A program made the translations under genes and the position numbers. A stretch of 64,000 nt of DNA from Thraustochytrium sp. TN22 (taxonomy: Eukaryota; Sar; Bigyra; Thraustochytrida; Thraustochytriidae), in NCBI GenBank assembly GCA_013306675.1, contig JABLUY010000025.1, positions 62,001 to 126,000 on the forward strand. Reading direction: 5' to 3'. Below the pieces are notes generated by a model, which searched no databases, was not told the DNA's origin, and worked only from the letters and a program-made list of their open reading frames with translations. Positions 1 through 35,727 of this stretch are shown piece after piece. Position 1 is the stretch's first letter; each line of letters starts with the position of its first letter.

Positions 1-683
1 GGATTCGTCTTCTCCAATTTTTTTCCCTCTCATGTCTGAGTCATGTCATGTCATGTCATGTCATGTCATGTGCTCAGCTCGAAATGTGCCGCCATCCAGC
101 CGGCCGGCTCGGGGCTCTCTGCGCGCCGTCGCTGTTTGCGCGGTCTGTTTTGCCTCAACCCTCCCTCTCTCGCGCAGTCAGTCTCAGCAGACGCTCCGGC
201 CCGCGCTCCTGCCACGCCAACCAAGCGTGCGCGCGAGGGCAAAAGCGGGCGCGGCCCCTCCTCCTCCTCTTCCTCGCCCTGACGTGCACTGATTGATTCT
301 GCAGGGCTCGGCGGCGCCGCGGCCAACGGCTAGCGGGCCGGGTCCGGTGGCACGCGGGCGCGGGCGGCGAGGCGCGGCGAGGCGGCGAGCGCCGGTGCGG
401 AGCGCGGCGGACCGGGCGGCGTCCGGCGGCGCGCCGCAGAGAGCGCGAGCGGGGCGGCGGCGGCGGCGGCGAGCAGCAGGTCCCGGTCCAGGTCCAAGCG
501 CGCGCGCGGCAGAGCGGCGCGCGGCGCTGGCGCGGCGGCGAGAAGCGCGGCGCGGCGCGGCGCGGCGGCGGGAGGGCGGCGCGGCGGCAGCAGCGGCGCG
601 GCGAGCAGCGGCGAGGCGCGGCGCGGGCGCGGCGCGGGCGCGGCGCGGGCGCGGCGGCGGTTGCGGCGCGCGGCGGCGGCGGC
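1..683. other. GC-rich upstream region of the MNS1 gene
   Basis: No gene is recognised here. The stretch begins with a TCATG pentamer array and then becomes extremely rich in GCG and CGG runs. Several frames stay open on both strands only because stop codons are rare in such DNA. It probably holds the promoter and 5' untranslated region of the gene that starts at 684. Confidence 0.5.
41..70. repeat. (TCATG)6 microsatellite
   Basis: Six perfect copies of TCATG are seen directly. This is one of seven pentanucleotide arrays in the window. Confidence 0.95.
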
Positions 684-2078
684 ATGGGGGACCGCTCGTA
701 CCAGCGGCGCATGGTGGCGCAGCGCGAGGCGGAGGCTCGGCGCGAGGGCCTGTGCCGCGTGCTGTCGGAGGACTCGCGCGTGCAGGAGGTGAACAGGTGG
801 CAGCAGAAGGCGGACGGGCAGCGGTACAGGTACAAGGTGGAGCAGCTGGAGGAGGAGCGGCGGCGCGAGGAGGAACTGCGGCGCGCGGAGGTGGAGGCGC
901 GCGTGCGCGAGCGCGAGAGCGCGCAGGAGGGCGCGCTCGCGGAGCAGCTGCGCAAGAAGCGGCAGGAGGACAATGCGGACGCCAAGCGCGTGGAGCTCAT
1001 CATCCAGAGCGACCCGCGGCTGCGCGACCTGCAGCGCAAGCTGAAGCTCGCGTACGTGACCAAGGAGCGCACGGAGCAGCTGAAAGAAAAGGCGGAGTTC
1101 GAGTACAAGGCCAAGGTGGAGGAGGTTGAGATGGACCGTGCGATGATGGATGCCATGCGCGAGCAGGAGGAGCGGCGCGCGCGCGAGGAGGCGAGCAGGC
1201 AGGAGTGGATCCAAAAGTCCAAGGACGACCTGCTGCGGCAGATGCAGGAGCGCAAGCAGATGCACCGCGCGCAGGCCACCGAGGAGTACGAGGAGGACAG
1301 GCGCAACGTGGAGGCTGTGATCGAGCAGATCATGCGCGAGGAGCACGCTGCCATGGAGGAGAAGCGCCGCCAGCAGGAGGAGACGCGCGAGCTCCTGCAA
1401 AAGTACCAGGTCCAGTACGAGCAGGAGAAGGCCGCGCGTCTGCGCGAGGAGCAGGAGCACGAGCGCCGTATTCAGGAGTACCGCGCCGCCGTGCACCAGC
1501 GCGCCGAGGCCGAGGCTGCCAAGAAGGAGGAGGAGGCGCAGCGCCAGGAGAAGATTTACCGCGAGATGCTGGCGCAGCAGGAGAAGCTGCGCGCCGCCGA
1601 GGAGGAGCTCCTCGACATTCGCGAGACGCTCTCGCTCGAGGAGGTGGAGCAGCGCGAGCGCGTGCGCGAGGCCGCGCGCCAGGAGCGCATCCGCCAGATG
1701 AAGCAGGAGATGATCGCGGCCAACGAGGCGCAAAAGCGCTACAAGTCCGCCATTCAGCAGCAGGAGGCGCTCGAGGAGCTCGAGTTGCGCCAGAGGATGC
1801 TGGACCAGTACGAGCGCGAGGCGGAGCGGGAGCGCGAGGCGGCGCGTCGCCAGGCCGACCAGATGCGTGCGCATCGGGACGCTATCGAGCAGCAGCGCAA
1901 GGACCGCCTCGAGCTTTACTACCGCGCTCAGGAGCAGGAGAAGGAGGAAGCTGCACGTCAGCAGCTTGAGGATGACTTTCGCGAGCGCGTCGTGCGTGAG
2001 GCTGCGCGTCGTTTGCTCGAGCAGCACAAGGACGTTATCGAGACGTACGGCGGTGGTCTTCGCAACTTTAGTTACTGA
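684..2078 (+). CDS. MNS1: MNS1-like ciliary coiled-coil protein (TPH domain)
   Basis: The predicted protein has 464 residues and is almost entirely helical coiled coil, dominated by E, R, Q and A, with a trichoplein/TPH-type region from about residue 100 to 450. Its length and its ending (RRLLEQHKDVIETYGGGL, compared with the hydrophobic-glycine ending of animal MNS1) fit meiosis-specific nuclear structural protein 1. In animals and algae MNS1 is a microtubule inner protein of ciliary doublets. That would suit an organism with flagellated zoospores, which is inference. The ATG at 684 follows a long CGG-rich leader and begins MGDRSYQRRM, like the N-terminus of other TPH proteins. It converges on VWA8. 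Another TPH-family protein such as CFAP53 or CFAP45 is the main alternative. Confidence 0.75.
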   Translation: MGDRSYQRRMVAQREAEARREGLCRVLSEDSRVQEVNRWQQKADGQRYRYKVEQLEEERRREEELRRAEVEARVRERESAQEGALAEQLRKKRQEDNADAKRVELIIQSDPRLRDLQRKLKLAYVTKERTEQLKEKAEFEYKAKVEEVEMDRAMMDAMREQEERRAREEASRQEWIQKSKDDLLRQMQERKQMHRAQATEEYEEDRRNVEAVIEQIMREEHAAMEEKRRQQEETRELLQKYQVQYEQEKAARLREEQEHERRIQEYRAAVHQRAEAEAAKKEEEAQRQEKIYREMLAQQEKLRAAEEELLDIRETLSLEEVEQRERVREAARQERIRQMKQEMIAANEAQKRYKSAIQQQEALEELELRQRMLDQYEREAEREREAARRQADQMRAHRDAIEQQRKDRLELYYRAQEQEKEEAARQQLEDDFRERVVREAARRLLEQHKDVIETYGGGLRNFSY

Positions 2079-2079
2079 T

Positions 2080-2170
2080 TCTGCTCGCTGCTCGCTGCTC
2101 GCTGCTTGCTGCTCGCGGCTCGCTGCCCGCTGCCCGCTGCCTGCTGCTTGCTGCCTGCTGCTCGCTGCTG
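2080..2170. repeat. 7-bp tandem array (CTGCTCG variants)
   Basis: About twelve degenerate copies of a CTGCTCG / CTGCCCG / CTGCTTG unit follow directly after the MNS1 stop codon. Confidence 0.85.
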
Positions 2171-2385
2171 TTGTGTGTGGTGGTGGAGGAGGAGAAAGAC
2201 AAGAGTGTCTGTCTGTTTGTCAACCTACCCAACGAACCCGTCCATCACGAAATGTGTGCCATCATCTCATCTTTTCATTTTCTCTTCTTTTTTTCATGTG
2301 TACGTGGTGGCGAAGAAAGGCAAGTCATCGCCTCATCACGAACTGTGTGCCATCGTCTCATCTTTTCTTTGGTCTCCTTCTTCCA

Positions 2386-2613
2386 TGTGGTGGTGGTGGT
2401 GGTGGTGGTGGTGGTGGTGGTGGTGGTGGTGGTGGTGGTGGTGGTGGTGGTGGTGGTGGTGGTGGTGGTGGTGGTGGTGGTGGTGGTGGTGGTGGTGGTG
2501 GTGGTGGTGGTGGTGGTGGTGGTGGTGGTGGTGGTGGTGGTGGTGGTGGTGGTGGTGGTGGTGGTGATGGTGATGGTGGTGGTGGTGGTGGTGGTGGTGG
2601 TGGTGGTGGTGGT
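2386..2613. repeat. (GGT)n microsatellite, 228 bp
   Basis: About 76 GGT triplets are interrupted only by two GAT triplets near 2566-2574. It lies inside the convergent intergenic spacer, so it may be GGU in MNS1 transcripts and ACC in VWA8 transcripts. GG-rich tracts of this kind can form two-layer G-quadruplexes; whether this one does is inference. Confidence 0.98.
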
Positions 2614-2655
2614 ACTTTTCTCCAAAATTCTTTCTTTCTCTCTGCTACGACGACA

Positions 2656-5600
2656 TCAGGCGTTGAGGACGGAGGACATAAAGATGCGCTTGAGAACGCG
2701 TGGGATGTCGCTTGTCTCGAGCGTGATAAAGGCGCGGTCCGGAGGCAGCTCCGACTTGAGGCGCTGCGCTTGGTCGCCGCTGGAGCCGATGAAGATGATA
2801 AAGACGGCGACGCGCGCATCCTGCTCGAGCAAGGCGCGCAGGTCGGCCGGCTCGATGCCGTACTGCTCCAGGTTGGCGTCCGAGAAGAGCACCAAAAAGG
2901 ACTCGTCCGACTCCTGCGCGGCGAGGTCCTTGATGGCCAGGCGCGCGGCCTCCAGCGTGTTGTCGCCCGACGCGCAAGTCTCCGAGTGTGCGTTGATCTC
3001 GCGCAACACACGCAGGCGGGCGCCGTCGTTGGGCGGCGGTGGCTTGGCCGGGTCCACAAACATGAGGTCGTCTGTGGACCCGCTGTGGCCGCGCACACTG
3101 TAGCGGAACTTCCACTCGAAGCCCTTGAGGCTCTCAAGGATCATGCAGACCGCCTCGAGCGAGCGCTCCAGGCGGCCGTCGAAGCCCATGGACGACATAG
3201 ACGAGGAGCAGTCCATGAGGAAGCACAGGTTCTTGGGCGTCGAGAGGAACGAGTACGGGTCCGGAGGCCGGTCCATGCGCCGCTTGTAAATGTTACGCGA
3301 CCCCGTGAGCGCGTCCACGATGCGCGTGTCGTCCAGGTCGCCGTTGTCGCGGTTCTTGACCCAGGTGCGCTCGTGCTTCTTGCGCTCCATGGCTTGCAGC
3401 GTCGTCCGCAGCTCATGGATCTCCTGCCGCACCGCCTCCTTGTAGCGCAGATAAATCTCGCCGTCGTACTTTTGCATGTCAAGCGCGCCCAGAACGTCGT
3501 TCCACCGCTCCGTGCCGATGCGCTTAGCGGCCTCCTTGGCCTCCAGCGCCATCTCGCTCTGGCCCTCGCGCCGCCGCCGCGCGGCCTCCTCGAGCGACCG
3601 CCGCCCGGCCGGCTGCGAGATTTGCTCTTGCAGCTGCTGCTCGAGTCGCCGCACCAGCTCCTCAAGCTGCGCCGCCTCGGCGCGCAGCCGCGGGTCGTCG
3701 TTGCCCTGAGCCAGCTGCCGACGCACGCGGTCGAGGCGCTGCCGCTCACGAGCGAGCCGCTCCCCGATCTCCGAGTCCTCGCTCCTCAGCTCCGCCTCGT
3801 CCGCTTCTGCCAGCCGCTGCTCGAGCTGATCCAGCTCAGCCTCAAGCTTATCGTTGTGCGGGAACAGCTTGAGCATCTCCTTGAGATCACTGATGCGCCG
3901 CTGCACCTCCTCGCGGTTGCGCTGCGACAGCTTGCGCGGACCGCGCTGCTGACCGGGCTCGGGCAGTGAGAGACCGCCGCTGCCACCACCGCCGCCGCTG
4001 CCACCGCCGCCGCCGCCGCCGCCGCCACGACCGCTGCCGCTACCGCTACCGCTGCCGCTACCATTGCCAGAGCCGGACCCAGTGCCGCCCCCGGCGCCGT
4101 CATTGCCGGCGCCCTCGCCTTCGTTGGGCTCGCCAGGGCCGCCACGCCCCCCACGGCGGCGAGCACGAGCACGCGCCCGCCGCGTGGGCCCGCCTCGGCG
4201 CCGGCCACGGCCGGCATCGCGTCGGCGTCGGCGCCCGCGGCCCGAGGCATTCTGCTGCTGCAGGTCGTCGAGGTCACCGCTGGTGGTGCCCCGCCCGCGG
4301 CCGCGCCGCTTCTTCTTGCCGCCCTTCACCTTGGCGCCCCGCACGACCACCATCTGGCCCTCGCCGGTCATCTCGCCGTTCTCATCGATCTCGAATTCGC
4401 CCTCCATCTCAATCTCTTCGATCTCGCCATCTTCGGAGCCCTCCTCTTCGGAGTCGTCATCTTCGTCCGAGGAGGTGTACGACGAGTCGTCATCGTCGTC
4501 GTCCTCGCTCATGTTCTCGTAGTCCACGTCAAGATCTCCGTTGTTGGCTGGGCTGTTGGAGCCAATCATCTTGCGCCAGTCCTCGTGCGACCTCTCCAGG
4601 CGGTCGGCGTCGATCTCGAATACGCGGCCCACGCCAGTGCGGTCGATGACCACAATGTTGCCGTCGTCGCGCGCAAGCGCGAACATCATGCGGCGCCGGA
4701 AGCGCTCCGGAAAACCAGCCACGGCCGCGCGCTCACCCGTCTCGCTCGACTCCAGCGAGTACTCGGCGGCCTCGGCGTGCACCGCGGAGGCGCTGACCTC
4801 GTCCTCATCCTCGTCCTCCTCGAATGTGGAGCCCAGCATGAGTGAGCGCTGCGCGCCATAGACCGAGGTATCCGGCAGCGAAATGGCGATCTGGCGCAGC
4901 TGCTGGCGGTCCAGGTCCACGATCTCCAGTACCGCGTCCTTGGCAAAGCCCAGGTAGCCGGCGGAGTGACCAGTCGTCTTGGCGCGCTCCTCGTCGGTGC
5001 GGCGGCGCAGGAGCACCGTGCAGAGCTGGGCGCCGAACGGCTGGAAGGCCGAGGCTGCCTGCACCTCGTCCGCCGGCGCGATGGCCGAGGTGGTGGTTGT
5101 GCGCAGGTACGAGCGCACCGAGGCGCCGTGCTGCTGCGGATCGTGTGCCGCGAGGTCGCCCTGCGCCGCAAGGGCCGCCGAGTTGAAGTCGAAGGCGCTC
5201 ACCAGGCCTGAGGCCACCTGGCCCAGCGTGCCCTTGCTGTACATGCAACGGCGGTCGGCATGCGCAGCGCCGCCGCGTAGAGGGAGCTGCTCCGACACAA
5301 GCGGCGCGGATGCCGTGAAGGCGCGCTCTGCGTGCAGGCGCGCAGGGGAGCGCGCGGACGGCTGCAGGTGCTCGCGCTCAACGGGCTCCAGCACAAAGGT
5401 GTCGTAGCGGATAGTGCGCACGCGCGGGCCGGCCGCCTCCTCGAGGAGGTAGTCGTCCGTGGCGCCGCCAAACGCGACGTCGTCATCCTCGGCCGCCGCA
5501 AAGACCGCCTCCGACTCGATGCGCTCGCCTTCAGCGTGCAACACGTGCAGCTTGTTGAGCGGGAGGCTGGAGGCTGCGGACTGCTGCGAGTGCTCGAGCG

Positions 5601-28043: not shown

Positions 28044-28297
28044 ATGGACGCCTTTGTGCGGTGGCGGTGCCGCGATTGCGGGCACGCGGGCAACGCGGGC
28101 GGGCGCGAGGTCTGCGGCAAGTGCGGCGCATCGCGCAGCGGTGGCGGGCCGCCGTCAAAGCGCGCGCGGCTGGCCGATGGCAATGCGGGCTTCTCGACGC
28201 GGTACCAGGGCAAGGTGCCGCTGCCGGAGCCGTGGCTGGCGGCGGCGGGCGGCTCAGTCCTGTTCCGCGCATGGCCGTCCACGGGCAGTGGCGATGA
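28001..28297 (+). promoter_or_regulatory. Overlapping upstream ORF with strong start context
   Basis: An ATG at 28001 in the context ACCATGG opens a 98-codon frame that overlaps the start of the end-repair gene in a different phase. No domain is recognisable. If it lies in the transcript, it could lower translation of the main frame. Alternatively it marks an unrecognised first exon. Confidence 0.3.
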
Positions 28298-28312
28298 TAC
28301 CTCGTCTTCGTC

Positions 28313-28347
<35 letters not shown>

Positions 28348-30761
28348 TGTCGGCGTCGTCGGCGGCAGCAGTGGCGGCCTTCGACTTCGATGGGTGCCTG
28401 TGCACCTTTGACGTGCGCGGCGGCGACAACAAGATGGAGCTGGTCTTCGATCACGCAGCGGACGTGCTGCGAGCGCTGCACGACAAGGGCCACCGGCTGG
28501 TGATCATCTCGAATGAGTCGCTGGCGCGGCTCAAAAAGGATGACGCGATCCGAAGGGCGATCGAGCGCAAGGTGCAGCGCGTGGACACCTTCTTGGACAC
28601 GCTGGCGGTGCCTTGTGAGGTGTACATGGCGACGCAGTACGACAAGTACCGCAAGCCGGCGACCCGGGACGCGGAGAGGCACGGCCCCAAGGCTGGCGGC
28701 ACGGCGCTATGGGACTTCATGCTGACGGACCCGCTCAAGGTGCTCAAGACGGCGCAAGGGGGGTCCTCAGGCGGCCACTTTTATGTCGGTGACGCGGCCG
28801 GGCGGCCGGGCGACATCAGCGACGGCGACAAGCAGTTCGCAGAAAAGATTGGCGTGCCGTTCCACACGCCAGAGGAATTCTTTTGGGCGGACGGCGTCGG
28901 CGAGCGCCTGACGGGCGTGCAGCCGCGCGGGGGGGCGCGCGCCAGCATGGCAGCCGGCGGCGCGGACCAGCAGGCGCCCATGTCGCGCGAAGAGCTCGTG
29001 GCGGGGCTACAGGGCATGCTGCGGCGCGCCGCGAAGCCGACGCTGGCGGTCCTCGTGGGACCGCCCGGGTCCGGCAAGTCGTCGCTTGCGGAGCGCATCT
29101 GCGAGCTGCTAGGCGGCGCGAGCGGGCCTGCGCGGCGCTTTAGCCAGGACAGTCTCAAGACGCGCCCCAAGGTGGAGGCCGCGTGCCGGGCGGCGCTAGA
29201 AGCCGGGTCCGGCGTCAAGCTCATCTTTGTGGATCGCACGAACCTGGGTGCAGAGCAACGTGCCTCGTGGGTGGAACTCGCTCGCGCCAGCCAGGCGCGC
29301 ATCGTGGCGATCGAGTTCGACGTGCACGTCTCGGTGTGCGTGCACCGATGCGAGACGCGGCGCGAACACGAAGGCAACTTCCCGACGGAGCGCGCGCAGA
29401 TCCTGGGCGTCCTGAACCGCTTGCAGGCCGGCCGGCAAGCAGTCAACGCCGCCGTAGAGGGCTTTGACGCCCTGTACCACGTCCAGGGCGCCACCTCGGT
29501 GGACGAGGCAGTGCAGCAAGTCCTGGCGACGGACGCGTTGGAGAATCATCCGCCCAAGGTGCGGGCGGCGGACAAGGATGCCTGCGTGGCGTTCGCATCC
29601 ATTTCGACAGGCGATTTTGCGTTCCCTGCGAACCGCGCGGCGGCCGTGCTGGTGCGCTCGGCGAAGAGGCTGGAGGGAGAGCTTGGCCTCGCGCCCAAGG
29701 CGCTGCGGCTCGTGGAGCCCGTGGGCAGCGAGGTGGTCCGCGCACTGCGTGCGCTGCCGTCGCTACCTGCTGCACTCGAGGTGGTGGAGGGTGACCTGCT
29801 GGCGCAGGAGAAGGTGACTGCGCTCGCCGTCGGCTGCGTGCCGCGCGCCGGAAAGCCGGGCGAGAACCGGGCAAACGTGGCGCTGCATGCCAAGATGCCG
29901 GAGCTGCGCACCATGGTGCCCAAGGGCCAATGCGCAGTGGCGGACCCTCTCGTGCTGCAGCTGCCGCAGGAGCACGAGGTGCGCAGGTCGACGGGGGCGC
30001 GGCAGGTCGCCCTCGTGGTCGGGCCTAACCTGAATCCAGACCGCGGCGCCACGCTACACAACCAGCCGCCAGAGATCGCGGACAGCCAGTTGGAAGCGTG
30101 CTACGCAGCCGTCTTTCGAATGGTGCTCTCCGGCGGCTTTCCAGAGACCTACTCGCCCCCGAACGGCCCTGTGCCGCCCGCGACGCGAGGCTGGGCCAAC
30201 GCGCTTCTGGACTACCTCCGCGTGCCGCCGCTGGCCGCGCACGCGTCGTACATTTTCTACGAGGACGCGCGATACACGGTTATCTACGACGCCTTTCCCA
30301 AGGCACGCGTTCACTTGCTGGTGCTGCCCAAGACCATCAACAGCACCAAGGTGGATCGCCTGGCGGACCTGCGCCGCGAGGACGAGACGGCGCTGGTGCA
30401 GCTGGGAGCATTTTGCGAGCGGCTCGTGGCGCACGTGGGCCAATTTGCGGGCGGTGTGCGCGTCTGTGCGGGCTTCCACGCCCAGCCATCGCTGCACCAT
30501 CTGCACGTGCACATCATCTCGCAGGATCTCTCGGGCTTCGGGCACAAGAAGCACTGGAATTCCTTTACGCACGCGGATTTCTTCATTGCGCCCGAACGCG
30601 CGCTGGAGACGCTTCGCGCCAAGGGGTCGTGTGCCTCGCTGTGCGGAGATGCCGCCACGGCTGCGCTCAAAGCGCCACTGGCGTGCAACCGGTGCCAGGC
30701 GCCGTCGACCAACATCCCAGCGCTCAAAGCGCATCTTGCCACGTGCACGAAGCCTCGGTAG
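28044..30761 (+). CDS. Fused DNA-end repair protein: ZnF, 3'-phosphatase, P-loop kinase, macro-like, aprataxin HIT
   Basis: The predicted protein has 905 residues from the ATG at 28044. The order is as follows. A RanBP2-type zinc finger (about 7-30; W-x-C-x2-C...N...C-x2-C). A Ser-rich linker (about 90-107). A HAD 3'-phosphatase of the PNKP/ZDP type with FDFDGCL near 112. A P-loop kinase-like domain with GPPGSGKSS near 340. A macro-like domain (about 505-700) whose flanking ISTGDFAFP and GPNLNP motifs match plant bHLH140-type proteins. A HIT domain of the aprataxin class with HLHVHI near 820. A C-terminal C2H-type finger (CNRC...HLATC). Together these activities would remove 3'-phosphate, phosphorylate 5'-OH and remove 5'-AMP from DNA breaks. 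Nuclear action is inferred. Confidence 0.85.
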
Positions 30762-30929
30762 TCGCTCGTTGGCAGACGACTGTGAAACGCACGTTGAGGA
30801 CACGCTAACTATCACTTCGAGCGAACTCCACAATACGAAGAACTTTAGAACCAGCTCGCTGGCAAGAGAGCGCTCCAACTTGAAACCGAATACGACCGAG
30901 TACGACAGAATTGAGTAAAGGTAGTTATA

Positions 30930-33268
30930 TCCCAATCCCATCGCCCTAGACGGAGTTTAATCAGGATAGCCATATTATCCCTAGTAAATCGGCTCTCCTG
31001 CTTGCGCTCGACTGACCTGTTGCTATCATGATTCTAATCATTTTTGGAACTTTCAACTACTGGGTTTGTATGGAAGCGTAAAGTGTTGGTCACTTCCGAC
31101 TGGCCTGTGCGGATGCTGAGGCCAACTTGGGCTGCATCAAGGGCACGATGGACTCGTGCTGAGGCTGCTGCGAGAGGATCTTGAACTATGGCTTGATGGG
31201 GTGTCGGTGTAGCTGGCTTGGGCTACGTGGTCGTTCCTGCTCTGCGCTGTAGGGGTACCGGACGAGGCACTGGCGCTGCTCGAATCGACATGATCGAGGC
31301 AAATGGGCGAAGGTGTTCCGTTGACGTTTGTCTTGCGCTTCTTGAAGCCTTCGTGAGGCTCGACGCGCACGCGCGTGTGCCACTTGGAAAAGCAGGTTGT
31401 GCGTTCATTCTTTCTCATGAACACGTGCAGAGGCACACCGCAGATGGTGCAACGACGGTGCGTTTGCTTGCCGCAGATGACGCAGAGCCGCTTGGCGGGA
31501 ATCCTCTTGTTGTTGGCGTTGAAGGATGCCTTTCCCGCTGCCTCTGAGTCATGTTGCAGTGCGGCATCGAGGCGGATGTCGCGGGCTTGGCCGTGGTTGA
31601 AGAACTTCTGCAACTCGGGGGTTCGCTTGCGCTTACCGGCGGTCACGAGGTCCCTCGCCGCTTCCCTGGTGAGCCCAGTGGGCTTGGGCATGCTTGGCTG
31701 CATGTTGAACTCCACCTGCGCCGTATCGAGCTGCCTGCTCCTGTAGACGTGACGGACCATGTCGACAGTGAGGCGGAACGAGACAGTGCTGAGCGCTTCA
31801 GAGCGGTTCACCTTGTCGCGGAGGGCCTTTAGCCCGTCGCTGTCTTCGAGGTTGCTCTTCCTCGCAGCCTGTAAGTAGCGGTAGACCACGATGGCGTTGA
31901 CAACGAGCTGCTTGTACGTGCGCAACGCGATGTTCTGGTCGCAGCTCAGATTCATGCACTGCGTGTTGGTGATCTGCTCCACGTACTGTGTGCTTCCGTC
32001 GACGCCGCCCTTTGCGACGTTGTATAGCTCCTGCGGTAAGCACTTGATGACATGCACGGGCCGCATGGGCCCCTTCAGAGCGACAAGCTTGCGCATGGCG
32101 CGCCACAGCCGGAAGTGCGAGCTCAGCACCGCCCCCTCCTCCTCGCCGAAGATGGCAGGTGGCTTGGGCGGCGCACCCGCTGTCGATGCTCTGGTGCGCC
32201 CATGTCGTGAGCTTGTCCGCCCACGGTTTCAGAGCGCGCTCCATGGCGAGCCGGGCGTCCGGAGGCACTTCAACGAGGCAGGCGTACAAACACGAACTCG
32301 TGCTGGCAGCAACGTAGAGCACGTGATCGATTTGGAGGACCACAGCTTGGTGCAAGACTTGCGCGCGGTGCTCGGCAGGTATGGCCTTCCACCAAGTCTC
32401 GTCCCCCACGTGTTCATCTGGGTGCTCACGATACGTGCGTCTACCGCGCCTCCAGGCGCGACGCGCGTCTTGATCTCGACGCTGCATAGTACTGACGATG
32501 CGTCGCACTCCGCGCCTGGAAGCCGGACGCGAGCGACTCCATCCGGCGAGACTGCGAGCCCCGGAACGGTCTTGTGCTGAATGAGGCCGACCTCGAACAT
32601 GCACTCGCACCACGCGTCGGTTCGTCGACCAACGCAAGTATGTCTTCGAAGTCTTGCTGCGCAGCGGCCTCAGCACGAGCATCCTCGTCGCCAAGCTCCT
32701 CTCCTTCTTCGTCTTCGTCCCCTGTGTCCCGCTTGTCCAGGGGCACGAACTCGCTGTCGCTGTCGCTGTCGCTGTCGTCCTCCACGCGGTGGTTAGGCCT
32801 CGCCGATGCCATGATGTCGCAGTGCGGGCCCGACTCCACGTCCAAGCGCTGCGGCAGGGGCGTGCGAGCTGAGAGCAGGCACAAGGCACCCGCCAGGGCC
32901 GCCTGCAGCCGCGCGCCGCAGCGCCTGCGGCTCCAGCGCGCTCCGCGACGAAGTCGCGCGCGAGCTCCCCCCAAAGCCGCTCTGGGCGAACTGCCGAGCT
33001 CATCTCATCCTAACCACCACGCCTTCGGCCAAAATGAATAGGGGGCAGGAGCCTTGGGTCGCTTCGAGTGGGCCTCTTCAAGCTCGGCCCCATCGCTGCG
33101 TTTTTGATCGAATGCGGAACTAACTTCGCCAGACTCTAGGCCACTTTTTTGGAGCAAATCGGGAGTAAAGTACCCTCTTAATACGCTTTAGTGCCCCCTG
33201 TGCCGGGCGTCACCGAGGGACCCCCGCGTGGTAGGCGGATACGAGTAAGCATAGAGGTGTGATTGGGA
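30930..33268 (-). mobile_element. DNA transposon copy A (2,339 bp), short inverted ends TCCCAATC
   Basis: Copy A is the mirror image of copy B: its genes read leftward and it has the same length as copy B. Every open frame in it has an identical partner in copy B. Its outer end begins TCCCAATCCC and its inner end reads ...GATTGGGA, so the two termini share TCCCAATC. TA dinucleotides flank the ends (30928-30929 and 33269-33270), suggesting a TA target. It sits 168 bp after the end-repair gene stop, in a spacer between convergent host genes. Identical copies imply a very recent event or an assembly artefact. Confidence 0.8.
31137..32812 (-). CDS. Transposon protein of copy A: YqaJ-type nuclease plus piggyBac-like C-terminus
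   Basis: This is the exact mirror of the gene in copy B (see that entry for domains). Coding signal is spread over more than one frame, so this is either an intron-containing gene or a decayed one. The longest clean block is the C-terminal 330 residues (31137-32129). Confidence 0.5.
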
Positions 33269-33270
33269 TA

Positions 33271-33313
33271 TCCCAATCCCATCGCCCTAGACGGAGTTTA
33301 ATCAGGATAGCCA
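33271..33313. repeat. 43-bp fragment of the element's terminus at the palindrome centre
   Basis: Bases 33271-33313 are the same as the first 43 bases of copy A (30930-30972) and the reverse complement of the last 43 of copy B. It is flanked by TA on each side (33269-33270, 33314-33315). It is therefore a terminal fragment lying between the two head-to-head copies, or a real 5' terminal inverted repeat of copy B. Confidence 0.9.
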
Positions 33314-33315
33314 TA

Positions 33316-35654
33316 TCCCAATCACACCTCTATGCTTACTCGTATCCGCCTACCACGCGGGGGTCCCTCGGTGACGCCCGGCACAGGGGGCACTAAAGCG
33401 TATTAAGAGGGTACTTTACTCCCGATTTGCTCCAAAAAAGTGGCCTAGAGTCTGGCGAAGTTAGTTCCGCATTCGATCAAAAACGCAGCGATGGGGCCGA
33501 GCTTGAAGAGGCCCACTCGAAGCGACCCAAGGCTCCTGCCCCCTATTCATTTTGGCCGAAGGCGTGGTGGTTAGGATGAGATGAGCTCGGCAGTTCGCCC
33601 AGAGCGGCTTTGGGGGGAGCTCGCGCGCGACTTCGTCGCGGAGCGCGCTGGAGCCGCAGGCGCTGCGGCGCGCGGCTGCAGGCGGCCCTGGCGGGTGCCT
33701 TGTGCCTGCTCTCAGCTCGCACGCCCCTGCCGCAGCGCTTGGACGTGGAGTCGGGCCCGCACTGCGACATCATGGCATCGGCGAGGCCTAACCACCGCGT
33801 GGAGGACGACAGCGACAGCGACAGCGACAGCGAGTTCGTGCCCCTGGACAAGCGGGACACAGGGGACGAAGACGAAGAAGGAGAGGAGCTTGGCGACGAG
33901 GATGCTCGTGCTGAGGCCGCTGCGCAGCAAGACTTCGAAGACATACTTGCGTTGGTCGACGAACCGACGCGTGGTGCGAGTGCATGTTCGAGGTCGGCCT
34001 CATTCAGCACAAGACCGTTCCGGGGCTCGCAGTCTCGCCGGATGGAGTCGCTCGCGTCCGGCTTCCAGGCGCGGAGTGCGACGCATCGTCAGTACTATGC
34101 AGCGTCGAGATCAAGACGCGCGTCGCGCCTGGAGGCGCGGTAGACGCACGTATCGTGAGCACCCAGATGAACACGTGGGGGACGAGACTTGGTGGAAGGC
34201 CATACCTGCCGAGCACCGCGCGCAAGTCTTGCACCAAGCTGTGGTCCTCCAAATCGATCACGTGCTCTACGTTGCTGCCAGCACGAGTTCGTGTTTGTAC
34301 GCCTGCCTCGTTGAAGTGCCTCCGGACGCCCGGCTCGCCATGGAGCGCGCTCTGAAACCGTGGGCGGACAAGCTCACGACATGGGCGCACCAGAGCATCG
34401 ACAGCGGGTGCGCCGCCCAAGCCACCTGCCATCTTCGGCGAGGAGGAGGGGGCGGTGCTGAGCTCGCACTTCCGGCTGTGGCGCGCCATGCGCAAGCTTG
34501 TCGCTCTGAAGGGGCCCATGCGGCCCGTGCATGTCATCAAGTGCTTACCGCAGGAGCTATACAACGTCGCAAAGGGCGGCGTCGACGGAAGCACACAGTA
34601 CGTGGAGCAGATCACCAACACGCAGTGCATGAATCTGAGCTGCGACCAGAACATCGCGTTGCGCACGTACAAGCAGCTCGTTGTCAACGCCATCGTGGTC
34701 TACCGCTACTTACAGGCTGCGAGGAAGAGCAACCTCGAAGACAGCGACGGGCTAAAGGCCCTCCGCGACAAGGTGAACCGCTCTGAAGCGCTCAGCACTG
34801 TCTCGTTCCGCCTCACTGTCGACATGGTCCGTCACGTCTACAGGAGCAGGCAGCTCGATACGGCGCAGGTGGAGTTCAACATGCAGCCAAGCATGCCCAA
34901 GCCCACTGGGCTCACCAGGGAAGCGGCGAGGGACCTCGTGACCGCCGGTAAGCGCAAGCGAACCCCCGAGTTGCAGAAGTTCTTCAACCACGGCCAAGCC
35001 CGCGACATCCGCCTCGATGCCGCACTGCAACATGACTCAGAGGCAGCGGGAAAGGCATCCTTCAACGCCAACAACAAGAGGATTCCCGCCAAGCGGCTCT
35101 GCGTCATCTGCGGCAAGCAAACGCACCGTCGTTGCACCATCTGCGGTGTGCCTCTGCACGTGTTCATGAGAAAGAATGAACGCACAACCTGCTTTTCCAA
35201 GTGGCACACGCGCGTGCGCGTCGAGCCTCACGAAGGCTTCAAGAAGCGCAAGACAAACGTCAACGGAACACCTTCGCCCATTTGCCTCGATCATGTCGAT
35301 TCGAGCAGCGCCAGTGCCTCGTCCGGTACCCCTACAGCGCAGAGCAGGAACGACCACGTAGCCCAAGCCAGCTACACCGACACCCCATCAAGCCATAGTT
35401 CAAGATCCTCTCGCAGCAGCCTCAGCACGAGTCCATCGTGCCCTTGATGCAGCCCAAGTTGGCCTCAGCATCCGCACAGGCCAGTCGGAAGTGACCAACA
35501 CTTTACGCTTCCATACAAACCCAGTAGTTGAAAGTTCCAAAAATGATTAGAATCATGATAGCAACAGGTCAGTCGAGCGCAAGCAGGAGAGCCGATTTAC
35601 TAGGGATAATATGGCTATCCTGATTAAACTCCGTCTAGGGCGATGGGATTGGGA
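33316..35654 (+). mobile_element. DNA transposon copy B (2,339 bp), inverted relative to copy A
   Basis: Positions in the two copies pair up exactly (each coordinate sums to 66,584), so there are no length differences. The inner end starts TCCCAATCAC and the outer end finishes GGGATTGGGA followed by TA. If the 43-bp segment before it is counted, copy B has perfect terminal inverted repeats of at least 43 bp. It ends 73 bp from the permease stop codon. Classification is uncertain: the protein combines a YqaJ-type nuclease with a piggyBac-like tail, while the TA flank is not the TTAA of classic piggyBac. Confidence 0.8.
33772..35447 (+). CDS. Transposon protein of copy B: YqaJ-type nuclease plus piggyBac-like C-terminus
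   Basis: An N-terminal acidic segment (MASARPNHRVEDDSDSDSD) is followed by a YqaJ/lambda-exonuclease-like core: VGLIQHKTVPGLAVSPDGV then CSVEIKTRV, and later AIPAEHRAQVLHQAVVL. These are the G-x-SPDG, EIK and Q-hydrophobic motifs of that nuclease family. The clean C-terminal block (34455-35447) has LYNVAKGGVDGSTQ, like the GGVD region holding the last catalytic Asp of piggyBac transposases. It ends in a Cys/His cluster (CVICGK...CTICGVPL...CFSKWHT), like the piggyBac C-terminal zinc domain. Coding signal moves between frames, so the gene has introns or is decayed. The first two piggyBac Asp residues were not seen. Confidence 0.55.
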
Positions 35655-35727
35655 TATTTGTTAGAGTGCGCTTTGACACAGGGACACACACCAACATGAC
35701 ATCGCCAGCAATGCTTGCAAGACCAAC

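Follow-up and report, generated by a model that had tools for sequence, protein, structure and literature searches.

The window analysed here, a 64,000-nucleotide stretch of contig JABLUY010000025.1 from Thraustochytrium sp. TN22, carries a single fusion gene for a 905-residue protein with several DNA end-repair domains. Pfam and structure comparison gave the order zinc ribbon, 3'-phosphatase, 5'-kinase, permuted macrodomain, aprataxin HIT domain and zinc finger (Table 1), so that the six domains named in the initial annotation were all recovered in one uninterrupted frame. The predicted structure of the protein had a mean predicted local distance difference test score (pLDDT) of 85.8. A hidden Markov model (HMM) starting at residue 50 of the fusion aligned to the ZDP rows P0019 and P0021 from HMM position 3, and the mouse PNKP fold match started at residue 61–64.

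Table 1. Positions in the window of the fusion gene, its domains and the neighbouring inverted repeat
Feature	Position	Strand	Residues	Details
Whole fusion gene	28044–30761	+		905 codons plus stop, frame uninterrupted
N-terminal four-Cys zinc ribbon	28062–28124	+	7–27	WRCRDC...CGKC
Short conserved module ahead of phosphatase	28191–28274	+	50–77	common to ZDP and PNKP
PNK3P 3'-phosphatase	28371–28883	+	110–280	D114, D116, S156, R203, K204, D250, D260, D262
P-loop polynucleotide kinase	29016–29519	+	325–492	GPPGSGKS 339–346, D369, D397, lid R439..H442-E443-G444
Circularly permuted macrodomain	29565–30140	+	508–699	
Altered macrodomain ligand loop, GKPGENRANVALH	29850–29888	+	603–615	plants have KPGGGGVNAAI there
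Aprataxin-type HIT domain	30246–30542	+	735–833	K753, H757, H812, H819, H821, H823
KKHWNSFT, C-terminal of HIT domain			835–842	
Aprataxin C2HE/C2HC zinc finger	30576–30746	+	845–901	C881, C884, H897, C901
Inverted repeat arms	30927–33279 and 33305–35657			25 nucleotides between arms

Three protein searches, each scoring the ~7990 candidates with the greatest word overlap, brought together 136 proteins, the query (row P0001) among them, and modules were assigned to these with HMMs built from the fusion. All four modules were present in six of the 136 (P0001–P0006, with a partial kinase in P0003), and the phosphatase, kinase and HIT modules in one (P0009), whose middle region resembles a decayed permuted macrodomain by eye. 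Kinase, macrodomain and HIT domain were combined in 37 plant-type proteins, none with the phosphatase; the rest had phosphatase plus kinase (74), macrodomain plus HIT (two, both from chytrids), kinase plus HIT (two) or one module (14). Residues 100–905 of the fusion aligned over 98–99% with P0002, P0004, P0005 and P0006, and the fused domain order is kept in relatives at 37–50% identity. The full fusion is also present in the nearest named relative, the thraustochytrid Hondaea fermentalgiana (Labyrinthulomycetes; P0003), in a public deposit named 'Aprataxin', which fits a stramenopile host. Because the same architecture recurs across these six proteins, and three of its modules in P0009, the fusion is not an accident of assembly. 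A viral origin was dropped, as tblastn with P0001 and the fusion alignment A1 as queries found no relative among the viral contigs scanned.

Residue conservation was counted in A1, which comprises six fusion rows. Invariant in all six were D114, D116, R203, K204, D250, D260 and D262 of the phosphatase and K753, H757, H812, H821 and H823 of the HIT domain, while S156 is serine in five rows and threonine in one, and H819, the first histidine of the HIT motif, is arginine in two. The phosphatase has the DxD nucleophile motif and the Lys/Asp motifs of PNK3P (D114, D116, K204 and D250 in every row), and D114 aligned with the mouse PNKP aspartate that is changed to asparagine in the PDB 3zvn construct. 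In the kinase, D369 is kept in the five rows having that segment and aligned with the aspartate of the PNKP NRDTL motif; the P-loop was found in six of seven fusion rows, the exception being P0003, whose model is without that segment. K753, R755 and H757 of the HIT domain correspond to K197, R199 and H201 of human aprataxin, read via the variant structures 4ndi, 6cvp and 6cvq, and H821 is presumably the nucleophile, as in aprataxin. Both marks of an aprataxin, the HIT motif and a C2HE-type finger, are present. Loss of phosphatase or HIT catalytic residues, the objection that the initial annotation had itself raised, was not seen in the alignment. By this comparison all three enzyme domains retain their catalytic residues, which are conserved, and the activity itself is predicted.

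To place the individual domains, unrooted trees were built from chosen subsets of rows. In the phosphatase trees (45 rows, being 44 of 90 matches plus the frame L005 described below, then 41 rows), the fusion rows, ZDP, P0045 and P0009–P0012 stood on one side with support of 100/99 in 45 rows and 99/94 in 41. ZDP proper is sampled thinly in this group, with just two near-identical rows carrying PARP-type fingers, plus P0045 with an FHA domain. An approximately unbiased (AU) test placing the fusion with the other PNKPs gave p 0.058, hence that alternative was not rejected. On its tree grouping (99/94, thin sampling), the phosphatase half is ZDP-type.

The kinase trees were built from 48 of 125 kinase matches and then from 46, without the long branches P0092 and P0030; the rows omitted included P0003, with half of the domain, and P0012, which is truncated. 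In the 46-row tree the animal/fungal-type PNKPs formed one side (24 of 46 rows, support 100/100), and the fusion, the plant bHLH140-type proteins and some protist PNKPs the other. The tree was dropped as proof of bHLH140 kinship, since AU tests rejected neither the core fusion with animal/fungal-type PNKPs (p 0.327) nor the core fusion with plant and kinase-plus-HIT rows (p 0.094). The lid motif R..HEG, picked after viewing the sequences and counted in 121 of the 125 matches (the other four being below the domain cut-off), was present in 6/7 fusion rows, 38/39 kinase-plus-HIT proteins without a phosphatase and 1/74 proteins with phosphatase plus kinase. P0008, labelled as a fusion in the trees, was counted with the last class and is without the motif. 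The kinase half is bHLH140-type because it combines this lid with a collinear macrodomain, HIT domain and finger. In the HIT-finger tree (26 of 52 rows) the fusion rows stood on one side (89/88, seven rows) and plants on another (96/92, 11 rows). Judged from domain content, lid and tree grouping, the fusion unites two plant proteins, ZDP and a bHLH140-type protein, which upholds the comparison with these two proteins drawn at the outset.

The protein resembles several known systems in part. It shares the order kinase, permuted macrodomain, HIT and finger and the R..HEG lid with the plant bHLH140-type protein, of which we take rice Q10MW4 to be an example; plant rows covering at least 94% of residues 490–903 of fusion row P0004 are ~26–31% identical to it. 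Unlike the fusion, the 37 plant rows have no phosphatase, and by pattern 33 of them have a GGGG ligand loop. Plant ZDP, although grouped with the fusion phosphatase, differs in having PARP-type fingers and no kinase according to two plant reviews (PMC10573277, PMC6728418), where the fusion has a zinc ribbon and a kinase. Like animal and fungal PNKP, the fusion has a 3'-phosphatase followed by a 5'-kinase, with a mouse PNKP fold match over residues 62–485, but it differs in its lid motif and in its additional macrodomain, HIT domain and finger. Unlike in aprataxin, the HIT domain sits behind phosphatase, kinase and macrodomain. No FHA domain, as found in animal PNKP and aprataxin, occurs among the best 25 of the 26 domain families matched by the fusion protein, whose N-terminus is the zinc ribbon. 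Dictyostelium APL (5LW6) is an FHA-PBZ-macrodomain protein without obvious catalytic motifs (PMC5087659), unlike the fusion.

The N-terminal finger was left as a putative generic zinc ribbon. In Pfam the N-terminal piece gave below-cut-off matches only, the best being DUF7130 (E 0.0011), followed by a rubredoxin-like family (E 0.0065) and further zinc ribbons; the corresponding pieces of relatives gave three weak matches for P0005 and none for P0002 and P0004. The zf-PARP family was not among the domain matches listed for the fusion protein or for this piece. A RanBP2-type finger was considered on its similar spacing by eye, yet no RanBP2 finger was among the Pfam matches listed. The ribbon is kept in P0002, P0004 and P0005, degenerate in P0006 and missing from the Hondaea model P0003.

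Profile and fold comparison assigned the macrodomain to the macro fold with its C-terminal half first, as in APL. This permuted form was described in Dictyostelium APL and plants by Gunn et al. 2016 (PMC5087659), where the rice structure binds ADP-ribose and F113 and D175 are pocket residues. The two rice residues land on the expected letters of 5lw0 at an offset of 65 and correspond to F525 (6/6 rows) and D584 (Asp in 4/6 rows) of the fusion. In P0001–P0006 the sequence [KR]P-x-E-[NS]-x-x-N-x-x-x-H takes the place of both the plant glycine loop and the NAAN asparagines. Neither loop is found in the macro-like region of P0009, and chytrid and Thecamonas relatives are also missing the glycines but have no P-x-E-[NS] loop. 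A second protein encoded in this genome, L002, has the same P-x-E-N loop but no F113 equivalent. Conservation of the acidic loop in two different fusions argues that the domain has kept a function, whereas loss of the ligand-loop glycines makes ordinary ADP-ribose binding doubtful. An active ADP-ribose reader or hydrolase would bring the enzyme to poly(ADP-ribosyl)ated breaks, much as the APL macrodomain is needed for recruitment; this is unlikely given the substituted loop, and no hydrolase activity was detectable in APL itself (PMC5087659). The macrodomain presumably binds a different ligand or serves structurally, and a spacer or changed-ligand sensor is more likely than an ADP-ribose hydrolase.

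Other macrodomain arrangements were observed. L002 (G000:C62, frame 481–2289, minus strand) combines its permuted macrodomain with an aldo-keto reductase (PF00248, E 5e-27), and protein P0027 contains phosphatase, kinase and aldo-keto reductase; this suggests a connection of aldo-keto reductases with ADP-ribose chemistry or with end repair. Two macrodomain matches with identical scores (G000:C37, 33100–33345 plus strand and 67135–67380 minus strand) flank a head-to-head pair of the high-copy repeat described below; the arrangement may be an inverted duplication or may have arisen in assembly. A permuted macro-like region precedes the HIT domain in aprataxins P0101, P0132, P0134, P0135 and P0136 (chytrids, Thecamonas and others), being clear in the two rows from chytrids; in the remaining ones it is weak or was recognised by eye. 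A PBZ finger is also present in P0101, and an FHA match close to the cut-off in P0136. The pairing of macrodomain and aprataxin may be of old standing among eukaryotes.

Taken as a whole, the fusion is probably one polypeptide that heals 3'-phosphate, 5'-OH and 5'-AMP ends ahead of ligation, a role modelled on the known domains. The zinc ribbon and aprataxin finger would bind a nick or double-strand end; the HAD-type phosphatase, with nucleophile D114, would convert 3'-phosphate to 3'-OH; the kinase, through P-loop K345 and D369, would phosphorylate 5'-OH using ATP; and the HIT domain, through H821, would strip AMP from the 5'-adenylated ends that failed ligation leaves. The healed break, now 3'-OH/5'-phosphate, would be handed back to the cell's ATP-dependent ligases. 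Animal PNKP and aprataxin are taken to XRCC1 or XRCC4 by FHA docking (PMC5087659), for which, we infer, the fusion itself may substitute. The domains and their order, the conserved residues, the predicted folds and the recurrence of the fusion come from the sequences and models; activity, recruitment, a single transcript and DNA as the main substrate are predicted from them.

One gene could in principle yield separate working products, a phosphatase and a kinase-macrodomain-aprataxin protein as in plants, by internal initiation (for example at linker Met313) or by proteolysis. Linker residues 297–310 between phosphatase and kinase are of low confidence and poorly conserved, and plant-type proteins have the kinase-macrodomain-HIT part without the phosphatase. 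Such a split is nevertheless improbable, as the fused order persists in relatives so far diverged in sequence and the Hondaea annotation is one gene with both phosphatase and HIT domain. Action chiefly on RNA or RNA-DNA junctions rather than on DNA breaks in general, whether in RNA end healing or on RNase H2 intermediates, to which titles of human aprataxin structures with RNA-DNA ends and kinase fold matches to the C. thermocellum polynucleotide kinase and the fungal tRNA ligase Trl1 would point, is equally improbable, since aprataxin is a DNA deadenylase, the genome has a separate RNA-ligase/kinase fusion (L003), and ZDP is a DNA 3'-phosphatase (PMC6728418).

Several observations weigh against the proposed healing of all three ends by one polypeptide. 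The predicted structure had a predicted template modelling score (pTM) of 0.54, so the mutual placement of the domains is not fixed by the model. The fusion reached neither the NCBIfam PNKP equivalog TIGR01663 (71.9 bits vs a cut-off of 502.8) nor the DNA 3'-phosphatase equivalog (87.9 bits vs 107.65). That the substrate is DNA and not RNA is something we infer from the families. P0003 is missing the last finger and the half of the kinase that carries the P-loop, gaps that are likely a gene-model error, and P0008 (634 amino acids, on a 2743-base contig) sides with the fusion in trees yet stops without macrodomain or HIT domain. PNK3P is encoded twice in the assembly, once in the fusion and once in a stand-alone frame of 259 amino acids (L005), and the fusion is therefore not the sole 3'-phosphatase.

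Within the assembly (37.9 Mb, 453 contigs), the single zf-C2HE match is the fusion itself, which is therefore apparently the only aprataxin of the cell. Other repair families matched were Tdp1 (one), Ku (two matches), ATP-dependent ligases (three matches) and PARP (eight over the cut-off), so that the fusion appears to work alongside separate ligases, Ku and Tdp1. The initial expectation that every common end-repair step would be coupled here was not borne out: Tdp1 and the second 3'-phosphatase are separate, and the domain families listed for the fusion protein include no nuclease, polymerase or ligase. XRCC1_N had no match in the assembly, but none in any control genome either, so nothing is claimed for a loss of XRCC1 as the cause of the fusion. 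L003 (G000:C321, frame 1411–3372, minus strand; 653 amino acids) has an RNA ligase, a P-loop kinase and a weak 5'-nucleotidase-like region below the cut-off.

Upstream of the fusion lies a kinesin gene on the opposite strand, and downstream a perfect 2353-nucleotide inverted repeat whose first arm begins at 30927, 166 bases past the fusion stop. A 2201-base piece of it had at least 46 matches at ~100% identity in the assembly (both window arms included) with 40 of 110 candidates scored, several standing as head-to-head pairs. Its frames are 330 and 401 amino acids, the 330-amino-acid frame being without a Pfam match. The repeat is a recent or homogenised high-copy element.

The modules and pairings themselves are already known: PNKP joins phosphatase and kinase, and bHLH140-type proteins join kinase, permuted macrodomain and aprataxin. 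New, as far as the literature searched goes, is the union of the bHLH140-type protein with the ZDP-type phosphatase; no description of it was found there, in a search covering few subscription papers. According to two plant reviews (PMC10573277, PMC6728418), ZDP has no 5'-kinase activity, and the words aprataxin and APTX do not occur in the main text of either. A table in PMC5483884 lists bHLH140 against human APTX, and ZDP against human PNKP, and bHLH140 carries a transcription-factor name in databases.

Tentatively, the fusion may preserve an ancient end-healing enzyme in unsplit form, with plant ZDP and bHLH140 as its separated halves. If so, bHLH140 would supply the 5'-DNA kinase that ZDP is without and would partner ZDP. 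The macrodomain of the fused protein may have been rebuilt around the acidic P-x-E-[NS]-x-x-N-x-x-x-H loop so as to recognise some ligand that is not ADP-ribose. As a Rosetta-stone fusion, the gene provides comparative evidence that suggests ZDP and bHLH140 act in one plant pathway, and bHLH140 may be a candidate for the missing 5'-kinase of plants. The fusion is also a single compact enzyme by which three types of blocked end may be healed.
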